NCBI GenBank assembly: GCA_958295465.1
Contig: OY282353.1
Coordinates: forward strand, 4,703,001 to 4,767,000
Direction of reading: 5' to 3'
DNA from: an uncultured Gammaproteobacteria bacterium
Lineage (GTDB): Bacteria; Pseudomonadota; Gammaproteobacteria; HK1
DNA: 64,000 bases
In this document: positions 42,934-54,769 of the stretch, in pieces
Layout: each line of letters begins with the position of its first letter
How positions within the stretch are numbered: the stretch's first letter is position 1
Program-made: the position numbers and the translations under genes
The notes under the pieces: model-generated
Databases searched by the model: none
What the model was told of the DNA's origin: nothing
What the model saw: the letters and a program-made list of their open reading frames with translations, nothing else

Positions 42934-44913
42934 ATGAGGACACTTCCGTACGGGGCCTGGCCGTCCCCGATCACCCCCGACGCCATCGTCGCCGACACCA
43001 TCCGGCTCTCGTCGGTCAGCCTGGACGCGGGCCGGATCGGCTGGCTCGAAGGGCGTCCCGGCGAAGGCGGGCGCAACGTCCTCGTCCGAGCCGGCGTTCG
43101 GAACGATGCCACGGCACGGCCCGCCGACGTCACCCCCGCGCCGTTCAACGTGCGGTCGCGGGTTCACGAATACGGCGGCGGCGCGTATGCCGTCTCCGGG
43201 GACCGGATCTGGTTCTCGAACGACGAGGACGGCCGGGTCCATGCGCAGGCAGGCGCCGCCGTGCCGATCCCGGTGACGGTGGAAGGCACGTTCCGATTCG
43301 CGGATCTGACCGTCGATCCCGTCCGGCGGCGCCTGCTCGCGGTACGCGAGACGCATCGTGACGGTGCGCCGCCGGTCAACGACCTGGTCGCGATATCCAT
43401 CGACGACGGCTCCATGAGAACACTCGCCTCGGGCCATGACTTCTTCGCGGCGCCGGCCCCCGGCCCCGACGGGCGCCGGCTCGCGTGGCTCGCCTGGGAT
43501 CAGCCCGACATGCCCTGGGATGCGGCGGCCCTGTATCTCGCCGAGCTCGACCGGGACGGCGTTCCCGGTGCGCCGCAACGCATCGCGGGAGGGCCGGGGT
43601 GCGCGGCGTTCCAGCCGGCATGGTCGCCCGACGGCGCCCTGTGGTGCGTCGCCGATCCGGAAGGATGGTGGAACCTCCACCGCTGGCGCGACGGCGAGCT
43701 CCGGTGCATGTATCGGGCCGAAGGCGAGTTCGGAAAGCCGCTGTGGCAGCTCGGGACCACCACGTTCGGGTTCGACGCCAGCGGATGCGTGGTGTGCACG
43801 TGGCGTAGCGGCGGCGCATGGCGGCTGGGCTGGCTCGATCCGGACGGCGCCATGACCACCATCCCGCTGCCGTGGACGAGCATCGATTCGCTTGCGGTCG
43901 ATGGCTCGACCGCCGCGTTCATCGGCGGCGCGCCGGATCGGAGCGCCGCGGTGGTGAGCCTGGACCTCGAATCCGGGGAGACGCGCGTGCATCGCGCATC
44001 GAGCGCGCTGTCGATCGATGAGCCCGTGCTGTCGCGTTCCGTCGCGCTCAGCTACCCCACCGGAGGCGGGGAGGAGGTCGCGCACGGCTTCTACTACCCG
44101 CCGCGCAACGCGGCGTGCCGGGGGCCGGCCGGCGAGTCGCCGCCGCTGCTGGTCATGAGCCACGGCGGGCCGACCGGGGCGACCTCCGACACCCTGAATC
44201 CGATGACCCAGTTCTGGACGAGCCGCGGCTTCGCGGTGCTCGACGTCGATTACCGAGGCAGCACCGGGTATGGCCGCGCGTATCGCGAGCGGCTCTACGG
44301 AGCATGGGGGGTGGTGGACGTCGAGGACTGCGTCGCGGGCGCGGTTCACCTGGCCGAGACCGGCCGTGCCGACCGGGATCGGCTCGCGATCCGCGGCGGC
44401 AGCGCCGGCGGCTACACCACGCTGTCCGCGCTCACCTTCCACGACGTCTTCCGGGCCGGCGCGAGCTACTACGGCATCTGCGACCTGGAGGTGCTCGCAG
44501 CCGACACCCACAAGTTCGAGGCGCGGTATCTCGATCGGCTGGTTGGCGCTTGGCCGGCGGAGCGCGACGTGTACCGCGCCCGCTCGCCGCTCCATCATGC
44601 CTCCCGGCTGGGGTGCCCGATCATCTTCTTTCAGGGGCTCGACGACCGGGTGGTTCCCCCGAACCAGGCCGAGCTGATGGTGAACGCCCTCGACCGCCGG
44701 GGGCTGCCCGTGGCCTGTCTCATGTTCGAAGGGGAAGGACACGGCTTCCGCAAGGCCGCCACCATGCGCCGGTGCCTGGAGACGGAGCTCGCGTTCTATG
44801 CCCGGGTGTTCGGGTTCGAGCCGGCGGACACGCCGGCGCCCGTGGAGATTCCGCAACCTCCCGAGATCGTGGGTGTTGTAACATATAGGGATGCGATTCG
44901 TGACGGGAACTGA
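42934..44913 (+). CDS. S9-family prolyl oligopeptidase (dipeptidyl aminopeptidase-like)
   Basis: This 659-residue serine peptidase has an N-terminal beta-propeller (residues 1-390) and a C-terminal alpha/beta hydrolase. The catalytic serine is in RGGSAGGYTTLSAL at residue 490, the aspartate in GLDDRVVPP near 571, and the histidine in EGHGF at 603. It cleaves short peptides in the cytoplasm; no export signal is seen. The last 15 or so residues (VGVVTYRDAIRDGN) come from sequence that looks more AT-rich, and probably extend into the left border of the neighbouring island. Confidence 0.9.
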   Translation: MRTLPYGAWPSPITPDAIVADTIRLSSVSLDAGRIGWLEGRPGEGGRNVLVRAGVRNDATARPADVTPAPFNVRSRVHEYGGGAYAVSGDRIWFSNDEDGRVHAQAGAAVPIPVTVEGTFRFADLTVDPVRRRLLAVRETHRDGAPPVNDLVAISIDDGSMRTLASGHDFFAAPAPGPDGRRLAWLAWDQPDMPWDAAALYLAELDRDGVPGAPQRIAGGPGCAAFQPAWSPDGALWCVADPEGWWNLHRWRDGELRCMYRAEGEFGKPLWQLGTTTFGFDASGCVVCTWRSGGAWRLGWLDPDGAMTTIPLPWTSIDSLAVDGSTAAFIGGAPDRSAAVVSLDLESGETRVHRASSALSIDEPVLSRSVALSYPTGGGEEVAHGFYYPPRNAACRGPAGESPPLLVMSHGGPTGATSDTLNPMTQFWTSRGFAVLDVDYRGSTGYGRAYRERLYGAWGVVDVEDCVAGAVHLAETGRADRDRLAIRGGSAGGYTTLSALTFHDVFRAGASYYGICDLEVLAADTHKFEARYLDRLVGAWPAERDVYRARSPLHHASRLGCPIIFFQGLDDRVVPPNQAELMVNALDRRGLPVACLMFEGEGHGFRKAATMRRCLETELAFYARVFGFEPADTPAPVEIPQPPEIVGVVTYRDAIRDGN

Positions 44914-45065
44914 TCATAGCTGCACCGAACCGATGAGACCACTGGTCACGTCCATGAATGGTCGCGATTGGACGTCGCTGGGTCGCGGTTTACGATCACC
45001 CGATCCGGTCTTCCGGGCGCACCTGAACTCGTGGATCAACGGCTCTTGTTATCGCGACGTGACGG

Positions 45066-46496
45066 TCATGTGCTTCCTCCGTAAAAGGACCGAACACCGT
45101 CAAGTAATGCAAGGGCGCGATCCTTATCTGTATCGTCGTACTTTAGCTGCCTTACCAAATAGCTGTATGCCGACGCCATAACTTCCCTGTTCCCGGCGGC
45201 CGCGCGCAACGCCCAGCCGCGACATTCCCGCACAAACTCGGGGAACGGGCAGCTATCGAGGTAGGCATCCAGATTCCCCCACGCCTTGGCCTGTTCGACA
45301 GACGGCCATGCGCCGACCTTGCCGGGTGCGTCGGGATGAAACAGCAGACTCAGTTCGAGTGTGACAGGATCCAGGCTGGCCGGGCCATCGCCAACATCTC
45401 CGTAGTCGATCAACTCCGTATCGACGGGCGACACGAAAATATTTTTACCATGAAGATCGCCATGACAGCACGCCCATCGTACTTGTATTGTCCGGCCTTC
45501 GAAATTCTGAATCCAGTCGAGATTAAATGTATCCCGAACTTGGTTGAGAGACTGGTCACTGAGAAGCCGTTTCCGTATCTCCCGGATCGTCATTCGCATT
45601 TCTGGAACCCCGGCGATCCATCGCGCCATCGCGGTTTCCACGCTACGAATAACGGTTTCAGCTCTTTCAGGGGATTTGCTCGCAATATCGAAAACACATT
45701 CGTCCGATCCCTCGGCAAGACCGAAAAATATCCCTGCCAGCTTGTGCGCGCCATATTCCAAGGTAGCTAGCTTTCTCGGCGTCGCGGCAGGTGCTAGCCG
45801 GGTTATATGCAAGTCATAGCATTCACCCTCTTTTCGAATATCATCGGGCGTCGAGAGTTTGGCCACGGCGTCGTGCACCAATACGCCCTGGTGGTCGGTA
45901 ACGCGCAGGCGGATGACGTGGGCGCCCGACAGGCCGCCCCCGATTTCGGAGACGGCGCAGCGCACTCCCTGAAACCTCCTCGCGAATATCCGAATCAGCC
46001 GATCTTTGGCGAGACTCAAGTCGAGATCCCTGCACTCCAGTTCGACATCTAACAGGCTTTCGATCGCCTGCGCGACTTGCGTCAGAATTTCCGGACACCT
46101 GTCAATGTTGTATTTCTTGAGAAACAGGATGGTCCCGGTCTTCCGACCTTCGCTCCAGATGTCCATCTGCTGCTGGTTCTGCAACACGAGACCAGAAAGA
46201 AAGTCCTCAGCAGGCGATCCGGTCAGTACGAAGATCGGTGTGCCAGGCGCGACAGTGCGTATCCTGTTGAAGACCGCGTGGCCGTGTTCGGGATCGGAAT
46301 CAAGAGCCCCGCTCACCGTCGGAATTTTCAGATCGAGTATAACGAGATCGAGAAAATCATTCTCCAGCATCTCATATGCCTGTTCGCGGCTGCCGGCGAT
46401 TCGGACACAGCAATCGCCGGGCAGGGCAGCGACGATCTCTTGCAGCTCTTCGACGAAGTCGTCGTCGTCCTCAACGATGAGTATATGCAGGGTCAC
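45066..46496 (-). CDS. Response regulator fused to an aminoglycoside-phosphotransferase-type kinase
   Basis: This 476-residue protein has a receiver domain at residues 1-145: acidic cluster at 9-13, phospho-acceptor D55 in LVILDLKIP, T92, K127, with an insertion after the acceptor strand. From about 160 it has an APH/protein-kinase fold: Gly-rich loop GGGLSGAH (186-193), ATP lysine in AVAKL (K213), E223, catalytic loop CCHGDLHGKN (D347, N352) and metal site LIDYGD (D364). All kinase residues are present, so activity is plausible; the target is unknown. Its GTG start overlaps the histidine kinase stop by 4 bp, pairing the two as a two-component system in the restriction operon. It is the operon's last gene. 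Confidence 0.8.
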   Translation of the reverse strand: MTLHILIVEDDDDFVEELQEIVAALPGDCCVRIAGSREQAYEMLENDFLDLVILDLKIPTVSGALDSDPEHGHAVFNRIRTVAPGTPIFVLTGSPAEDFLSGLVLQNQQQMDIWSEGRKTGTILFLKKYNIDRCPEILTQVAQAIESLLDVELECRDLDLSLAKDRLIRIFARRFQGVRCAVSEIGGGLSGAHVIRLRVTDHQGVLVHDAVAKLSTPDDIRKEGECYDLHITRLAPAATPRKLATLEYGAHKLAGIFFGLAEGSDECVFDIASKSPERAETVIRSVETAMARWIAGVPEMRMTIREIRKRLLSDQSLNQVRDTFNLDWIQNFEGRTIQVRWACCHGDLHGKNIFVSPVDTELIDYGDVGDGPASLDPVTLELSLLFHPDAPGKVGAWPSVEQAKAWGNLDAYLDSCPFPEFVRECRGWALRAAAGNREVMASAYSYLVRQLKYDDTDKDRALALLDGVRSFYGGST

Positions 46497-47377
46497 CGTT
46501 CCCACCGAATCTCGAACCGTGCACCCCCCTCCGTTGCGGGCTGCAAGGTGCACGCGCCACCCAACGTCTCGATCGCCTGTCTGGCAATAGCCAGTCCAAA
46601 CCCGCTATGCCCCTTCTTGGTGGTCTTGCCGATGCCAAATGCAGCCTCCGCCGGACCGATTACTCCCGGGCCGCGATCCAGCACCCCGACCCAGTAGTCG
46701 ATGTCGGTCTCGCCCCAATTCACAACAATCGGATGCGGTTCGTCGCCGGGAGCACCGGTAACTGCTTCCAGCGCGTTTCGTATGCCATTAGAGATCGCCA
46801 GCCGCAGCAATGCGGGATCGGACGTGATCAACATAGGTTTGGAGCCGAGCAACGAGACCTTTACTGGTCCGTTTCCGGCAACTTCCGACACGATTTCAGC
46901 AAGCAATTCGGCTAAATCAAATTCACTTGGCCTCGGAACCGCCGCAGCGCTTTTCAATTGTTCAATCACCTCGAAAATCCGCTTAATGGTATCCATATGT
47001 TTTTTGGTTCTGGAATCCAGGTATTCGGGGACTTCGCGCGCAGCAGCGGAAGCGATCAAACCGACGGGCGACGAGATTTCGTGAAGTATCTGCCCGGTGA
47101 TTTCCTTGGTCACTTCATTCCGGATCTGCGCCCGGACATCCGGAGGAATCTCAATTTCCTCCAAGGCATCTTCAGCTACGGGAGATGCAGAACTCGATAC
47201 CCGTTTGATGGCAAACTCCAAGCCGGTGTGCACATATGAAACGGTTTCATTTCTTAGGGCATCTCGGAGAATCTGAAGATCGGACAGGTCGCTGTTGCGT
47301 GCAAGGAAGCGTGCGGCTTTCAACCGGTCATGTGCCGAGTCGGACGAAAGGTTCTTTAGCGCTTCTTCTCGCGTCAT
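46493..47377 (-). CDS. Soluble sensor histidine kinase with HEAT-like N-terminus
   Basis: This 294-residue protein has no membrane span. Residues 1-60 look like two HEAT-type helical repeats (HDRLKAARFLARNSDLSDLQ). The H-box ILHEISSP puts the phospho-histidine at H99, followed by a HATPase domain with NGIRNALEAV (N-box), LDRGPGV (G1) and KKGHSGFGLAIAR (G2). It should autophosphorylate and pass phosphate to D55 of the downstream regulator. Start and stop both overlap neighbours by 4 bp (ATGA with the ATPase gene, GTGA with the regulator gene), so the three are coupled. The cytoplasmic location suggests an internal signal, perhaps DNA or ATPase state. Confidence 0.85.
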   Translation of the reverse strand: MTREEALKNLSSDSAHDRLKAARFLARNSDLSDLQILRDALRNETVSYVHTGLEFAIKRVSSSASPVAEDALEEIEIPPDVRAQIRNEVTKEITGQILHEISSPVGLIASAAAREVPEYLDSRTKKHMDTIKRIFEVIEQLKSAAAVPRPSEFDLAELLAEIVSEVAGNGPVKVSLLGSKPMLITSDPALLRLAISNGIRNALEAVTGAPGDEPHPIVVNWGETDIDYWVGVLDRGPGVIGPAEAAFGIGKTTKKGHSGFGLAIARQAIETLGGACTLQPATEGGARFEIRWER

Positions 47378-49206
47378 GACGTTCTATAACGGCTATAGAA
47401 TGCCGCACGCCTTTTGAAGGCTTTTGCGCCGCCTTCCATGACTGTCGTTATCGCATTGACGACGGACGGATCATCGAGATTAGAGGCCAATACAGGAAAT
47501 CCGCGTTTGCCATCGGAGCTGAGCTGTATCACACGGTCCGCACCTCCGAGCACGGGGATATTCGGGTTATGCGTCGAGAAGATGATCTGGCTGTCGGTTC
47601 TCCTTGCAAGAACCGAGAAGATTAGCGTATCCACGATGAACGCGTTGTCGATATGATCCTCCGGCTGATCGACAATAAGAACACGTTCGGAATGCCGCAG
47701 GACTAGTGGCAGAATCACTGTACAGCGCTGCCCGGTGGACAGCTCGGCGATACCCTTATAGTCCGCTCCGTCGAGAAGCTGTAACGCGACGGTATCCTCT
47801 ACAGCAACGGTGGCAAGCACGCCAAGGTCGCATTCGCGCAAGTGGCCTAGTGCGCGCGCGGCCCGGTCCTTCGTGATCCCGGCGGCTTCGGCGATTAGAT
47901 CAAAATCATTAGTGTCCACCGCTTCGATCAGTTCGCGCGGGCTGACGTTTCTGGCGAGAGTCGAGGAGAGTTCGTTGTACCGCAGACCACTGCCGCGCAA
48001 CGCGTCCGCTATGGCGGCTGCAAAAGCTTCGAACTGTCCAGCACGGGAGACCCTGACGCGGATGCGCCCCCCGAGGGTTTCAGTCAATTTCGTAGCCACG
48101 GCATTGCGCACGCCGAAGCGCTGTTCCGTGATCGAATCCAGTCGACCCAGAGCGGCATCGCGCTGCACAAGAAAAGAATTGAGCGCTTTCCGCCGCTCAA
48201 TCAGCACCTTTTTAAGCGATTCCAGGTGCGCCTTGCGCTGCCGGAGTTGTTGCCCTTGGCGAACAATCGCGCCCGCTCCTTCCTGAAGGGTTTCGACCTC
48301 CTTGCGCAATTGCCTTGCGCGATCTTCGATGTTGAGCTTGTTTTCCTGCGACGATCGAAGATGCGACTCCGCTTCGGACATGGCGTTCTGCAACTCCCGG
48401 CGGGCGTTGTCCAGGTGATCCTTGGCACGTCCGACGCTTTCGCGGCATTTCGCGAGCAGATCAGGGCCAGCGCCTTCCGGCCAAGGTTCAAGGGTAGGTT
48501 GAGGAGACGCTAGCGATGACTGCCACCTGGATACAGACTGTTTAAAACGCTCGATCGCGCTAACACCGACGGCAGATGCTGCCATATTGGCGGAGATCGC
48601 GTCGAGCTGGTTTTTCTTCTCGTTGGCGTTCGCAGAAACCCTCGCCAATTTCTGTTCCTGTGGGACAAGTTCGGCAATTTGCTTGTCAAGAGCAGGGATT
48701 TCCTCGATCTGCCCCGCGAGCTCGTCGATCTCACGACGCTGCGCCTTCATTTGGACAGTAAGAGAGCGCACTTCGGAAGACGCTTCAGATTCGCGCGCTT
48801 CCATCAATTTCTGGTTTTCACTGAAACTGTCGAGCAACCCGATCCGGCCATGCGCCCGAAGTCCGACGGTTTCGATCTCAGTCTGTGAGAATATTATCGG
48901 GCGAACAAACGATCCTGATGCGCGGGGTGACTCGTCGGAAGCCGAGCGTGTCACAAGGACGTCCCGCTCGCCATCGGACAGCGTGACTGTCACCTGTCCG
49001 CTCGTCAGTATGGATAGCGCGTGATCCAGGCTCCGTTTCGTCGAATCCGACGTGTACCCCCGCACGCCGAGGCAAAACCGGACGAGTTCAATAAGCGAAG
49101 TCTTCCCTGTACCGCGCTCACCGATAACGACGTTAAGCCCCGTCGCAAACGACACGTCGAGACCGTCGAGGAACCCTTCCTCTATCTGGACACGTTTAAT
49201 TCGCAT
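47374..49206 (-). CDS. SMC/Rad50-like AAA ATPase with coiled coil
   Basis: This 610-residue protein has Walker A VIGERGTGKTS (K35) at the N-terminus. A long heptad-rich region lies between about 130 and 370, including KAQRREIDELAGQIEEIP and RKEVETLQEGAGAIV. The C-terminal half-domain carries signature ELSTGQ (488-493), Walker B RVLIVDQPED (D513) and the His switch in FSTHNPNIPV (H546). This is the split ABC head of DNA-end or filament sensors. It lies 48 bp after the Res gene and overlaps the histidine kinase by 4 bp. A role as damage or invader sensor for the kinase is inferred from coupling only. Confidence 0.85.
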   Translation of the reverse strand: MRIKRVQIEEGFLDGLDVSFATGLNVVIGERGTGKTSLIELVRFCLGVRGYTSDSTKRSLDHALSILTSGQVTVTLSDGERDVLVTRSASDESPRASGSFVRPIIFSQTEIETVGLRAHGRIGLLDSFSENQKLMEARESEASSEVRSLTVQMKAQRREIDELAGQIEEIPALDKQIAELVPQEQKLARVSANANEKKNQLDAISANMAASAVGVSAIERFKQSVSRWQSSLASPQPTLEPWPEGAGPDLLAKCRESVGRAKDHLDNARRELQNAMSEAESHLRSSQENKLNIEDRARQLRKEVETLQEGAGAIVRQGQQLRQRKAHLESLKKVLIERRKALNSFLVQRDAALGRLDSITEQRFGVRNAVATKLTETLGGRIRVRVSRAGQFEAFAAAIADALRGSGLRYNELSSTLARNVSPRELIEAVDTNDFDLIAEAAGITKDRAARALGHLRECDLGVLATVAVEDTVALQLLDGADYKGIAELSTGQRCTVILPLVLRHSERVLIVDQPEDHIDNAFIVDTLIFSVLARRTDSQIIFSTHNPNIPVLGGADRVIQLSSDGKRGFPVLASNLDDPSVVNAITTVMEGGAKAFKRRAAFYSRYRTS

Positions 49207-49254
49207 GGCGAAGCCTCAATAAGCAATTTAACGAGACTGGGCATCTCTCCCGCA

Positions 49255-52008
49255 TCACACACCTCCGTCCGGCAACTGAGAGGCCTCCGTGACGACGCGG
49301 TAACCACGTTGGCCCATCCCCAGCGTTTCCCGGAAATGCTTCTGACTAAAGAGAATCTTGCGCTTCTCGTCCGGGCGCAGCTCGTCGAGGTTGAGCGTAC
49401 CCTTGGTTTCGCGGACGAGATAGAGTAGGTTGTCATCGCCGTCCGGGTTCTCCATGACGAGGGCCCAGTCTGGGTTGTAACTGCCGATCGGCGTTTCGAC
49501 GGTAAACCAGGACGGAAGCTTGATGTAGAGATGCACGTCCTTCCGTTTCTCCAGCGCTTCGATAAACGGCTTCTCGATGGTCTTGGAATCGAACGGGACG
49601 CCGTCATAGATATGCGTACCACCGGCGCCGTTCTTTTCCGTGCTCGGCACGATGTAATCCTCCCAAGTCTCAATCTCGGACACGAAGAGAGTCATCTCGT
49701 ACCATTCGTCGAGTTTCTCGTAGCGAATGCCGTGAACTAGCTGATCGGCGAGCTTGTTTTTGATAATGCGGACAGCCGTTCTTGAAAATTCATGGGGATT
49801 CTTCAGCGCCGCCGCGCGGTTGCTGGTACGCCGGAATATCTCTAGCAGCGTTCTGCGGCTCACACGCATCGGCGGCGAGGTGTTCTCCATCAGATTTTCC
49901 ATGATCTCGACGAGGTTCGGCAGCGGATAGCGGCCGGCAAGGTCGATGGCGGTACGCGCGCCACTTTGCGCCAGCGCTTCGAACGTATCCTTATCGTTGG
50001 CGATCACCTCGGCCTTTGAGATCGATACGCGGGGCTTGCGGATCGCCGTACAATCAAGTTCAGGTAGGACTTCCTTGATGAGTCGGTCGCTGTCGATGGT
50101 GACGGCATAGCGAGTCTTGTATTTGATTAGGTCCCACAGTTCTTTGAACTCGGGTTTCAAGATATACGCCTTGCGCAGCCGCAGGATCGCCTTCTTGCGA
50201 GCGTCCGGTGGTTCCGGCGGTGTGCCGTCCTTGCCGTATTCGACCTCGATTTCGCTTTGCAGCTCGGCGACAAAGCGCTCGTAGGTCTCGCTTGCAACGA
50301 CTGTGAGGACGTTGATCCGATCGTCCTGTACGCGTTCACCTACCTGGTTGACCGGCAGGCGCACACCGCGACCGACCTGCTGGCGGCGTTCCGTATCGGA
50401 GCCGACTTCCCGCATCGTGCAAATCTGGAATACGTTGGGGTTGTCCCAACCTTCCCGCAGAGCGGAGTGAGAGAAAATGAAGGACACCGGTTCATCGAAC
50501 GACAGCAGATCCTCCTTGCGTTGCATGATCAAGCTGAACGCTTCTTCGTCCGCCTTGCTCTTACCGGTCGAATCCAGATACTCGATCGCACCGCCCCTAT
50601 TTGACTTCGTGGCGAAATATGCGGCCCGTACGTCTTCGGGATTCCGGTCACGCCACTCGGGATACGACACCTTCAATTCGTTGAAGGCGCGGTCGAACAG
50701 CTCCCGGATGATGCCATCCTTAGCCACATAGTTGCCCACCTTGTCAATGAAGAACAGGGACAGGACTTTGATCCCTTCGTCTCGGAAACGTGCCTGTTTA
50801 CGGAAGTGTTCCTCGATCGTGTAGCGAATTTGCGCCTCAAATATCGTCTCCTTCTCGACGCCTATGATTTCGCCGATGTGAAGCTCGACGTTATTGGCGA
50901 AGCGAATGAATTTGCCACCGTAGCTGATTTCCTCGACGACATAGCCCTTGTAGTCGACGCGCCCAGTCTTCTCCTCCAAGTCGTCATCGCCCTTGACGGT
51001 CAGCGCGGTCTCCTTGATCATACCGCTTCTCATTAGCTTGTGTACGCCGAGCCGTGCGACAGGCTTCTTTGATCGGATCTTGATTTCTTCGAGGCGCAGA
51101 AACGGTTGGTTATGGTTGTCTTCCTCGACGACCGAGGCCACTTCGATCCGTTTCACGAGCCCCTGCCGGTAGGCGTCGTAGGGCGTGAGGCGGTAAGTCA
51201 GATTGTAGGGGTTTCGGTGGGTGGCGCTGTAACGCAGCGCAAACAGTGGGTGCAGGCTGGCGAGCGCAGCAATACGGTTCTCGCTCTCCATGTTCTGCGG
51301 CTCGTCAAGGATAAGCGCGGGCCGACTGGCCTGGATCAGGCTCAGCGGTCGCTCGCCTTGAAGCCTGTCCGTCGACTGGCGGATAACGTTTTCGGCGCGG
51401 GCAAAAGCGTCGATGGTCATGATCATGATTTCCAGCCCGTCCGACAGGGCGAACTGGCGCACTTGGCTCAGGTTGGCCGAATCGTAGACGTAGTAGCGAT
51501 ACGGCGGATTGTCATACAGCGCCTTGAGATGCGATTCGGTGACTTGGAGCGTCTTGTACACACCCTCTCGGACGGCGACGGACGGGACGACGATGATGAA
51601 CTTGCGCAACCCGAAACGCCGGTACAACTCCATCACGGTACGCAGGTAGACATAGGTCTTGCCGGTACCAGTCTCCATCTCGACGGAGATGTTAGGAAAC
51701 CGCCCGGGGATACCGTCTACGTTTTCGAGGGAATCGAAATCAGCAACGTCACCGGCGAAGTCAGGGAGGGGTGCCGATATGACCTTTAGTTGATGGTCGG
51801 GCTCGATACCTGTTTCACCCTGAACATATTGAAGGTTCCTGAGCAGCATATCTTCAGACAGATCAAGCCGGTTAGCGATCGCGAAGAATCCGTCTTTGTC
51901 GGAAACGATCAGTTCACTGCGAACATAGGGCTGCCCTTCAAACAAGCCACAGGTGGCTTCGATTGCGGCGAGTTGGTATTCCTGCGTTGCGTCGAAACGG
52001 AGTTCCAT
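49255..52008 (-). CDS. res: Type III restriction enzyme Res subunit (helicase-nuclease)
   Basis: This 917-residue SF2 translocase-nuclease has Walker A METGTGKTYV (K117), motif II as LILDEPQNM, and motif VI RRQQVGRGVRLP. The C-terminal PD-(D/E)XK nuclease is visible as YNPDWALV followed by YLVRETKG. The motif II variant DEPQ is usual for type III Res proteins. Together with Mod it cleaves DNA bearing oppositely oriented unmethylated sites after ATP-driven movement. It starts 6 bp after the mod stop. Helicase and nuclease motifs look intact, so the system is probably active. Confidence 0.92.
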   Translation of the reverse strand: MELRFDATQEYQLAAIEATCGLFEGQPYVRSELIVSDKDGFFAIANRLDLSEDMLLRNLQYVQGETGIEPDHQLKVISAPLPDFAGDVADFDSLENVDGIPGRFPNISVEMETGTGKTYVYLRTVMELYRRFGLRKFIIVVPSVAVREGVYKTLQVTESHLKALYDNPPYRYYVYDSANLSQVRQFALSDGLEIMIMTIDAFARAENVIRQSTDRLQGERPLSLIQASRPALILDEPQNMESENRIAALASLHPLFALRYSATHRNPYNLTYRLTPYDAYRQGLVKRIEVASVVEEDNHNQPFLRLEEIKIRSKKPVARLGVHKLMRSGMIKETALTVKGDDDLEEKTGRVDYKGYVVEEISYGGKFIRFANNVELHIGEIIGVEKETIFEAQIRYTIEEHFRKQARFRDEGIKVLSLFFIDKVGNYVAKDGIIRELFDRAFNELKVSYPEWRDRNPEDVRAAYFATKSNRGGAIEYLDSTGKSKADEEAFSLIMQRKEDLLSFDEPVSFIFSHSALREGWDNPNVFQICTMREVGSDTERRQQVGRGVRLPVNQVGERVQDDRINVLTVVASETYERFVAELQSEIEVEYGKDGTPPEPPDARKKAILRLRKAYILKPEFKELWDLIKYKTRYAVTIDSDRLIKEVLPELDCTAIRKPRVSISKAEVIANDKDTFEALAQSGARTAIDLAGRYPLPNLVEIMENLMENTSPPMRVSRRTLLEIFRRTSNRAAALKNPHEFSRTAVRIIKNKLADQLVHGIRYEKLDEWYEMTLFVSEIETWEDYIVPSTEKNGAGGTHIYDGVPFDSKTIEKPFIEALEKRKDVHLYIKLPSWFTVETPIGSYNPDWALVMENPDGDDNLLYLVRETKGTLNLDELRPDEKRKILFSQKHFRETLGMGQRGYRVVTEASQLPDGGV

Positions 52009-52014
52009 AGCACG

Positions 52015-53889
52015 TCACAGAACCTTCAGCCTGCACTGGAGCGCTAGGTTGGCGGCTAGCGTGTCGTCGAGCGCAGTATCACGGCAGACGAACAGGTCGT
52101 CGCGCGTCAGTCCGAGCGTCCTAACCGCATCCATGCCCAGCTTGTCGTCCAAACAGATGTGGAAGCTCTGCTCCCGTTGGGGGTCGGTCACACGCCAGAC
52201 GTTCTGCCCGTCCACTTCGTGTTTCTCGATTTCTGAGGTAAGTGCGTAGCCCTCGCGCAGAGCAACCTCCCAAACAACGTTCTCCGATTTCCAGCCGGGT
52301 GCGAGCGTGTCCGCGAACGCGTTAAGTTGTTCAACATATGCCTCTGCGTCCTTGGTTTCGATGCCTGTCCAGCGGCGGATATTCGATTCGGCAAGCCGGA
52401 ATACGCGTACGGCGAGATTGGCCGTGTCGCCGTTGCTGTCGGCAAGCATCGTGTTCTGTTCATAGGCGAGCCTCCTTGCCACCGTGCGAATCCGATGTAG
52501 ACCGAGCTGGCTTATCGTCGCGTAGCCGCGGCGGACCGCTTCGCCGTCGGTGTCGAGCACTTCGGGTAGCTGGACACAAACATAACGGCGGTGCCCGCCA
52601 TCCCGGCGATTCTGTTCCATGACGGCATGAGCCGTCGAACAGGAACCGGCGAAGAAATCCATGACGAGATCGTCTTCCGAGGATAGTTGCTCTACGAAGC
52701 GGCGAAGCAATTCCGCGGGTTTGGGAAAATCTAACGCCTGGAAGCCGAAAATTTCGCGCACTTCTTCCGTCCCGTGCGAGGTATGAACATCATCAATGAT
52801 TGTTGGGAACGCCATGAACTGGCTTTGGAGGTCCTTCTTGAATTTTTTCTCCCGTGGCCGACCGTTGGGATTTGCCGGGAACAGGACGCATCCACCGTCA
52901 ATCAACTTTTGCATACGTTTTTTCGAGTACCGCCAACCGCGGTTTGCGGGCGGCTCATGGGTGAACCCGGTTGTGGGGTCAGTGATTGGGAAGTGCAGGT
53001 TCGGTCGTTGCTCGGCCGTGGCGAGCCCCAACATGCTGCGGCTCATCCACGGGCCGCGTGGATCATTGTCTGGGTTCTGGAACTTCGTCTCGTCCCTCTC
53101 GCTGCCGCGAAACAATCCATCGGGGCTACGGCGGTAAGAGAGCAGATATTCATGATCGATGGATACCTGCGTAGTTGAGCGCGAATCCGGAAATTTTCGA
53201 CTTTTCCATACAAACTGGGCGATGAAGTTTTCCTCACCGAAGACCTCATTCATAAGGAATTTGAGCGCCGCAACTTCGTGGTCCGAAATGCTGACGCAGA
53301 TCACACCATCTTCGTTCAAGAGTTGCCGCGCCATAACGAGGCGCGGATACATCATCGACAGCCACGTCGAGTGATAACGCCCGCCCGTCTCCGGGGTAGA
53401 GGTTAGGTATTCGCCGTTGCAGTTTTTTTGTCCGGTGATGCGCAGATAGTGGTCGAGCGGATCGGCGAAGTTGTCAGGATAAACGAAATCATTGCCTGTA
53501 TTGTACGGCGGGTCGAGATAGATCATCTTCACACGACCGAAATACGCCCGGTAGATAACCTTAAACGTCTCAAGGTTTTCGCCTTCGATGAAGGTGTGCT
53601 GAGCTTCTGTGAAATTGACGCTTTCATCGATGTCGGGAACAAGTGTCGCGCTCGTGGGTGCCTGGAGCATGGCGACGGCATCCCTTCGTCCAGCCCATGT
53701 GAACGAAAACCGCTCCGGCCGGTCTTCGATCTCCTCGCCGAGTAGCTCGCGGAGCTTCGCGAAATCGAACCGGTCTTCGGTAAACGCCTGCGGTGTAAGA
53801 AGGCGAAGCTGGGCAACGAGCTCATCGCGAGGCGAAGACGAATCGCTCGCGACGCGCTCCCTCGGTTTCGATTTTTGTTGCCCTGCCAA
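52015..53889 (-). CDS. mod: Type III DNA N6-adenine methyltransferase Mod
   Basis: This 624-residue beta-class methyltransferase has the catalytic motif DPPYNTGND at about residues 126-134, before the SAM-binding MDFFAGSCSTAHAV near 455, which is the order expected for Mod. The variable centre is the target-recognition region. It methylates one strand of a short asymmetric site and forms the restriction complex with Res. A TTG start at 53889 is proposed, four bases after the upstream stop, because longer reading overlaps the RHH gene and is not family-like. Confidence 0.92.
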   Translation of the reverse strand: MAGQQKSKPRERVASDSSSPRDELVAQLRLLTPQAFTEDRFDFAKLRELLGEEIEDRPERFSFTWAGRRDAVAMLQAPTSATLVPDIDESVNFTEAQHTFIEGENLETFKVIYRAYFGRVKMIYLDPPYNTGNDFVYPDNFADPLDHYLRITGQKNCNGEYLTSTPETGGRYHSTWLSMMYPRLVMARQLLNEDGVICVSISDHEVAALKFLMNEVFGEENFIAQFVWKSRKFPDSRSTTQVSIDHEYLLSYRRSPDGLFRGSERDETKFQNPDNDPRGPWMSRSMLGLATAEQRPNLHFPITDPTTGFTHEPPANRGWRYSKKRMQKLIDGGCVLFPANPNGRPREKKFKKDLQSQFMAFPTIIDDVHTSHGTEEVREIFGFQALDFPKPAELLRRFVEQLSSEDDLVMDFFAGSCSTAHAVMEQNRRDGGHRRYVCVQLPEVLDTDGEAVRRGYATISQLGLHRIRTVARRLAYEQNTMLADSNGDTANLAVRVFRLAESNIRRWTGIETKDAEAYVEQLNAFADTLAPGWKSENVVWEVALREGYALTSEIEKHEVDGQNVWRVTDPQREQSFHICLDDKLGMDAVRTLGLTRDDLFVCRDTALDDTLAANLALQCRLKVL

Positions 53890-53893
53890 TGGA

Positions 53894-54088
53894 TTATCGA
53901 CTCTTGCCCAGTGCCTCTGCGGCGAATGAGGCGTCTTGCGCCTCCATCTGCCGCTTCGCAACATATTCGCGCATAAATTCGCGTATCACCTGCGCTGCGG
54001 GCTTGTCCTCGGCACGGCACGCTTCGAGGAACCCCTCACGGAGCGTACGCTCGACCCGAATGCGGAGCCCTGCATTCTTCGTTGCCAT
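53894..54088 (-). CDS. Ribbon-helix-helix small regulator
   Basis: This 64-residue protein contains LRIRVERTLREGFLEACRAE and AAQVIREFMREYV, an RHH (Arc/CopG-like) fold with strand then two helices; the helix-turn position carries Ala-Ala-Gln-Val-Ile. It starts at ATG 54088 and is the first gene of the mod-res operon. Two direct 9-bp repeats stand immediately upstream, the usual site layout for self-repressing RHH proteins, so it is a good candidate for the operon repressor, delaying Res or the kinases on entry into a new cell. An antitoxin role has no partner here. Confidence 0.7.
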   Translation of the reverse strand: MATKNAGLRIRVERTLREGFLEACRAEDKPAAQVIREFMREYVAKRQMEAQDASFAAEALGKSR

Positions 54089-54095
54089 GGCAGCA

Positions 54096-54127
54096 GTGTA
54101 GCCATTGGATGCACAAATGTGTAGCCA
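54096..54127 (-). promoter_or_regulatory. Direct-repeat operator/promoter of the island operon
   Basis: On the minus strand TGGCTACAC occurs twice (54119-54127 and 54096-54104), 23 bp apart, ending 7 bp before the RHH start codon. Each copy contains an extended -10-like TGGCTACA(C). The spacing of about two helical turns suits binding of adjacent RHH dimers on one face of DNA. Confidence 0.5.
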
Positions 54128-54299
54128 AATTTCCGATTGACATGAAGAAATTCTGGTGCCGGGGTCCCGTATCCCGCTTGCGAATGTCCGCACCGATGCT
54201 ATCTGCGAGTCGCGATACCGGCACCACGGCGGCTCCGACCCGATAGAGACCGGGCCGGAACGGCGAACCCGAAGTCCCCCAGACCCAGATAAGGGTCAA

Positions 54300-54554
54300 C
54301 TAATTGATCAGACACAAATATTTCAGCTTTCGGAGATTCCAGGTACTGAGAACATTTGAGGTGTGCGGTACGGCCTGAATCGGTGTCGGCTCGGTGAGGA
54401 AAGACAGCGCCGGCACCGTAGGTTCGGCGGGGACCCGACAGGTGTTGCGGCAGCGAGTCGCGAGTTCGCCGAACAGGGTATCGAGGCTGTGAATGGGACG
54501 TACCCGGATGTCGAGCCCCTTGAGGGTGCGGAACCAACGTTCGATGTCAGCCAA
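54300..54554 (-). mobile_element. Remnant of an IS1634-family transposase
   Basis: The minus strand encodes ADIERWFRTLKGLDIRVRPIH, then directly SLDTLFGELATRCRNTCRVP and LTEPTPIQAV. Both parts resemble the C-terminal third of IS1634-type DDE transposases, where VERAFRSLK..D..VRPIHH and ELA...RNTCR..TPTQ segments are about 80 residues apart. The piece between, including RVRAHIFLCMLAYY, is deleted. No terminal inverted repeats were found. Confidence 0.65.
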
Positions 54555-54701
54555 TCCCTACGGATCGGCAAGCTCGCCGGCAACGGGCCGAGGCTCTGGC
54601 TGAAGATGCAACAGAACCACGATCTCTGGCACGCCGAGCAACGGCTGAAGGTCGAGTTGGCGAAAATCCATACAGCAAGGGCAGGGACAGGGCTTGGCTG
54701 A
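54545..54701 (+). pseudogene. 3' remnant of a HigA-type antitoxin gene
   Basis: The plus strand encodes SQSLRIGKLAGNGPRLWLKM and QQNHDLWHAEQRLKVELAKI before a stop. This is the C-terminal half of XRE-family HigA antitoxins (pattern LR..K..GN.P.LWL.MQ..YDLW.AE). The DNA-binding helix-turn-helix and the HigB toxin are absent. It abuts the IS1634 remnant, so an insertion-deletion event probably removed the rest. Confidence 0.65.
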
Positions 54702-54769
54702 CCGTCACAAGTCCCTGGGCATCACGGTCACGATACGCCGCGGGCGGCGTTGCCCGCGGCATCCGTGCA

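Follow-up and report, generated by a model that had tools for sequence, protein, structure and literature searches.

A mobile trio of genes for an SMC-like ATPase, a histidine kinase and a response regulator-kinase beside a type III restriction system

Introduction

Two-component signalling is among the commonest sensing devices of bacteria, and Detocs is the only defence system using it that we found in the literature searched. The chromosomal locus described here raises the question of whether a second such system exists. In a window of 64,000 nucleotides (the whole stretch of DNA that was analysed) from an uncultured gammaproteobacterium, genes for a small RHH-like protein and a type III restriction pair (Mod and Res) are followed by genes for an SMC-like ATPase, a soluble histidine kinase (HK) and a response regulator (RR) with a kinase as its output domain. 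The initial annotation took all six for a single defence system, with restriction as its first line and a phosphorelay behind it. Do the six genes belong together, or do the last three, hereafter the trio, constitute a unit of their own, and what would such a unit do?

Results

The ORF calls agree with the six minus-strand genes and their order as originally given, and also with their spacing, gaps of 4, 6 and 48 bp being followed by two 4-bp overlaps (Table 1). The genes lie in an island of 9.9 kb with approximately 56% GC, within a chromosome of 69% GC. The impression that the block is more AT-rich than its flanks was correct, since its GC content is 55–58% against mostly 66–72% nearby; the trio has 56.4%, Mod-Res 56.6% and the rest of the window 69.1%. 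In a genome of the same genus (G661) the site is empty, with the S9 peptidase and aminotransferase genes only 62 bp apart, and the island flanks are 94–95% identical to that genome. The transposase and antitoxin remnants noticed at one edge are those of an IS1634 element and of HigA, both at the right edge. The S9 peptidase gene (42934–44913 of the window) has lost its native 3′ end through the insertion, and its last ~22 residues are new, as homology to the empty-site genome ends at about 44845. Long minus-strand ORFs over the peptidase and aminotransferase genes resemble the shadow frames of GC-rich DNA and were not accepted as real genes.

Table 1. Features of the island and its edges (positions in the window)
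Feature	Position	Strand	Evidence
Inserted island, between S9 peptidase gene and aminotransferase gene	44846..54735 (ends approximate)		Empty site in same-genus genome; GC drop
RR whose output domain is a TCAD9/APH-type kinase (proposed effector)	45066..46496	-	Response_reg and TCAD9 (Pfam) above cut-off
Soluble HK, HEAT-like helical repeats at its N-terminus	46493..47377	-	HATPase_c over cut-off; H99/E100, N-box and G-box residues
TrlF/Ppl-superfamily ATPase, SMC/Rad50-like, lacking the PHP nuclease domain (proposed sensor)	47374..49206	-	NCBIfam TrlF and Ppl matches; conserved motifs
Type III restriction endonuclease Res (neighbour of trio)	49255..52008	-	PADLOC REase_III 2.8e-235; Pfam ResIII and, over cut-off, RE_endonuc
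Type III methyltransferase Mod (neighbour of trio)	52015..53889, TTG start	-	PADLOC MTase_III 4e-163; Pfam N6_N4_Mtase
Small RHH-like protein, first of the Mod-Res genes	53894..54088	-	RHH_9 match weak, E=3.5e-4, below cut-off
IS1634 transposase remnant, right island edge	54300..54554	-	52.5% identity over 39 aa to IS1634 transposases, E=3e-3
HigA antitoxin remnant, right island edge	54549..54680	+	55% identity, E=4e-8, to HigA antitoxins

The SMC-like ATPase was rightly recognised as such; more narrowly, it corresponds to the C-terminal two thirds of a protein of the TrlF family. It matches positions 290–943 of the 944 of the NCBIfam TrlF model (E=1.9e-69; 235 bits, under the cut-off of 350) as well as the Ppl model (4.5e-22), and the TrlF and anti-phage Ppl models match all 11 trio ATPases scanned. 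Walker A, Q-loop, LSxGQR signature, DQPED and H-switch are conserved in the trio ATPases, which begin at the Walker A domain and have no N-terminal PHP nuclease domain; of three full-length TrlF proteins that were scanned, two have PHP. The ATPase tree has three supported groups, namely kinase-type trio (14), phage-type (7) and TrlF (7), with 100/100 support for the trio ATPase as a group of its own.

In the HK, for which no membrane-spanning domain was found, H99, E100 and the N-box and G-box residues are invariant at the 13 loci at which the trio occurs (see below). Its first 60 residues were modelled as helical hairpins (pLDDT ~80–88), and Pfam HEAT_2 matches the longer kinases of phage-type relatives. 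Also invariant at the 13 loci are E9, D10, D55, T92 and K128 of the receiver and the kinase motif H345, D347, N352 and D364 of the RR. The fusion of this RR to an APH-type kinase, as first proposed, stands: TCAD9 scores 51 bits in the window copy (cut-off 40) and APH falls just under its cut-off there, but is matched in all 12 members scanned. The structure models of the HK and of the RR-kinase are of low confidence (mean pLDDT 62 and 65, respectively); Foldseek with the latter matched receivers and APH kinases (aminoglycoside phosphotransferases), and such models bear out no more than a receiver with an APH-like fold and helical repeats. Because the phospho-acceptor, kinase and ATPase motifs are kept, all four activities should be intact, judging from the sequences. 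The expression "complete phosphorelay" was too strong, since there is a single His-to-Asp step, without an Hpt domain or a second receiver. In PADLOC 2.0.0 neither the HK nor the kinase output has a specific model.

The idea of a new system had been made dependent on homologues of the last three genes being found together near defence genes elsewhere. They are, also without Mod/Res: the 13 trio loci comprise the window, an Erythrobacter contig from the genome scan that lacks Mod/Res, nine plasmid loci (Rhizobium, Caballeronia, Shinella, Klebsiella, Phaeobacter, Leclercia, Rhodococcus, Vibrio and Pantoea, spanning Alpha-, Beta- and Gammaproteobacteria and Rhodococcus) and two prophage contigs, and several of them are near defence or toxin–antitoxin genes. 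In one prophage contig, that of a lambdoid-like phage, the trio has replication genes on one side and NinB/RusA-like genes on the other; in the second contig it lies at the prophage end, beside tail-fibre and UmuDC genes. Other neighbours are Hachiman HamAB, VapBC on both sides at one locus, an AbiEii-like gene, a Fic protein and, in Rhizobium, a UvrD/E1-like cluster. ATPase, HK and RR-kinase genes keep the same order at all 13 loci, with overlapping or adjacent ORFs, and their products share 32–60%, 24–55% and 28–53% identity, respectively, with those of the window. The three genes co-evolve: their protein identity matrices over the 13 loci correlate at 0.95–0.96, a value that none of 5000 permutations attained. 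At each of the other 12 loci the GC content of the trio is lower than that of its surroundings. The trio is a genuine conserved unit, horizontally mobile and independent of Mod/Res.

It is also rare, being present among 398 sampled genomes of the phylum in the window's own genome alone (0/397 others), which is likewise the only carrier in the family sample of 17 genomes. A blastn search of complete E. coli genomes with the Klebsiella copy or a prophage copy found no trio; in GenBank phages no RR-kinase was found, and the ATPase gave short C-terminal matches only. One viral match (L019) was discarded as an unrelated kinase-like protein matching over 35 residues. In Piscirickettsia plasmids (L014, L015 and many related ones) the HK and RR genes are present, but the ATPase gene is fragmented or missing nearby. 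Upstream of the Rhizobium trio (L013, 4137–8840) is a gene for a protein of 1567 residues with weak AAA and HEAT matches and no PADLOC match which, clustered with UvrD-like and E1-like genes, is a candidate unknown defence gene. Upstream of the Klebsiella trio (L007, 5426–6541) there is a SMEK-domain gene, the N-terminus of whose product matches an Argonaute-associated REase model.

The restriction genes behave differently. Mod methyltransferase and Res helicase-nuclease make up an ordinary type III pair, preceded by a gene that does exist where an RHH regulator had been annotated, although its RHH match is weak and below cut-off. A tblastn search of the flanks detected Mod/Res at none of the other 12 trio loci, including that of the closest relative, in Rhizobium, and the best plasmid relatives of Res sit in records other than the trio records. 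Since Mod/Res are absent from those 12 loci, the type III system is a neighbour and not a component, and the trio genes are not parts of a type III restriction-modification system. On the same ground we rejected the six genes as one system with restriction as the first line.

When viral contigs were scanned with the ATPase alignment, nine further ones (L048–L056) came to light in which an ATPase gene is followed by those for an HK of about 372–374 residues and an RR of about 250–265 residues without a kinase domain. The receiver residues are kept in this phage type, except that T92 is replaced by S. The alignment of these HKs to H99 is about four residues out of register, and the phospho-histidine is likely conserved, an HE motif being visible nearby in the sequences. 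For the C-terminal 110 residues of the RR there was no Pfam or convincing PDB sequence match; this output is small and possibly DNA-binding, and a winged helix is our reading of its sequence only. The phage-type operons adjoin phage recombination genes, with a serine recombinase in one case (L055). The occurrence on phage contigs of ATPase, HK and RR with another output in place of the kinase argues that the output domains are exchangeable and the core modular, and that this core acts as a sensor relay. Output domains are likewise exchangeable in known conflict systems.

Discussion

We favour, with moderate confidence, the view that the trio is an autonomous mobile three-gene defence module that sits behind an independent type III restriction system by chance. 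Its mobility, its carriage by prophages and plasmids and its neighbours (Hachiman, VapBC and AbiEii) are best explained, we infer, by defence against mobile elements. From the ligand and the direction of signalling to the kinase substrate and the defensive outcome, the inferred course of events would be as follows. The TrlF/Ppl-type SMC-like ATPase would engage abnormal invader DNA, e.g., free 3′ ends, or read nucleotide depletion, and would signal via the HEAT-like repeats of the soluble HK. The HK would then autophosphorylate at H99 and pass the phosphate to D55 of the receiver, which would unleash the fused APH/TCAD9 kinase; by modifying a host or phage target, this kinase would stop the propagation of the phage or plasmid, probably via growth arrest. 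However, PADLOC gave no specific match to the HK or the kinase part, and carriage by plasmids and prophages would also fit a stress or addiction module serving its carrier.

A trio of this latter kind would serve mobile elements in stress response or stabilisation: on sensing that DNA is damaged or the carrier lost, it would arrest growth through the kinase, with no anti-phage role. We consider this unlikely: while it would accommodate the frequency of the trio on plasmids, its presence in two prophages, the VapBC, HigA and other toxin–antitoxin genes nearby and the Rad50/SMC-like nature of the ATPase, there is no antitoxin-like partner gene, and one copy of the trio is in a chromosomal island flanked by housekeeping genes, another next to a dedicated defence system. 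An SMC-like ATPase and many plasmid carriers would also suit a module which, by analogy with the SMC-based Wadjet or DdmABC, targets competing plasmids and not phages, but the trio includes no nuclease and is carried by prophages too, which makes such a role improbable. Least probable of all is one integrated defence system of six genes, with the trio as a reserve called upon after failure of type III restriction, for the shared strand, the 48-bp gap, the matching GC contents and an apparently single insertion are outweighed by the distribution of Mod/Res given above.

If the defence module reading is extended to the phage-type operons, an unnamed immune-signalling superfamily can be proposed, tentatively and as something that we would not yet call probable. 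A TrlF/Ppl-type DNA-sensing ATPase would act through a HEAT-repeat HK on a receiver with interchangeable outputs: in the chromosomal, plasmid and prophage copies this would be an APH-type kinase acting as effector, and on the phage contigs a small output domain that possibly binds DNA. Were this true, one sensor family would drive either direct attack by a PHP nuclease, as in TrlF/Ppl, or two-component signalling, and the TrlF/Ppl ATPase sensor would be separable from its nuclease and pluggable into other outputs. It would also provide a tractable system of SMC-like sensor, His-Asp transfer and kinase with the single-residue switches H99, D55 and D347.

That no named system has this gene set, as was first supposed, agrees with our literature search, whose coverage is incomplete, and a recent description is possible. 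By its logic the closest system is Detocs (DtcABC), which also relies for phage defence on an HK and an RR bearing an enzymatic effector; the trio has such a pair, with HATPase_c and Response_reg over cut-off. However, the effector of Detocs is a PNP that degrades (d)ATP, and a buffer protein, DtcB, goes with it, whereas in the trio an SMC-like ATPase is added and the output is an APH-type kinase: the 12 members scanned all have TCAD9/APH and none matches PNP (PF01048), and the trio operon contains no further receiver-like gene that would encode a phosphate buffer at any of the 13 loci. HATPase and REC appear among the abbreviations of one figure of DefensePredictor, and its text mentions a purine phosphorylase among these systems; the one in question is probably Detocs-like and was not retained as the same system. 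The TCAD9 domain of the output (Pfam PF19974) belongs to ternary conflict systems (described in PMC7159879), and the trio resembles the vWA-MoxR-VMAP ternary system in this TCAD9/APH-family kinase, but no vWA, MoxR, VMAP or iSTAND domain occurs among the six island proteins. Lamassu (LmuAB) does not apply either, as LmuB models match the ATPase only (best E=1.4e-14) and there is no LmuA match in the block.

By its sensor, the closest system is TrlF/Ppl, whose SMC-like ATPase domain is homologous to the trio ATPase over its whole length. Ppl is an anti-phage protein, reported to be a 3′–5′ exonuclease that nucleotide depletion and 3′ DNA ends activate (PMC12904381). In TrlF and in Ppl a PHP domain forms the N-terminal part of a single protein, whereas the trio ATPase is without PHP, belongs to a separate group of the tree and is encoded together with the HK and RR genes. 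The natural reading is that the trio may have retained the sensor ATPase and exchanged the nuclease for signalling. As for full-length TrlF genes, one (L058, 602–5372) is beside brxL on a Klebsiella plasmid and another (L059, 2751–7237) lies amid DUF1156, DUF262 and DUF499 genes on a haloarchaeal plasmid, and these neighbours suggest that TrlF itself is linked to defence.
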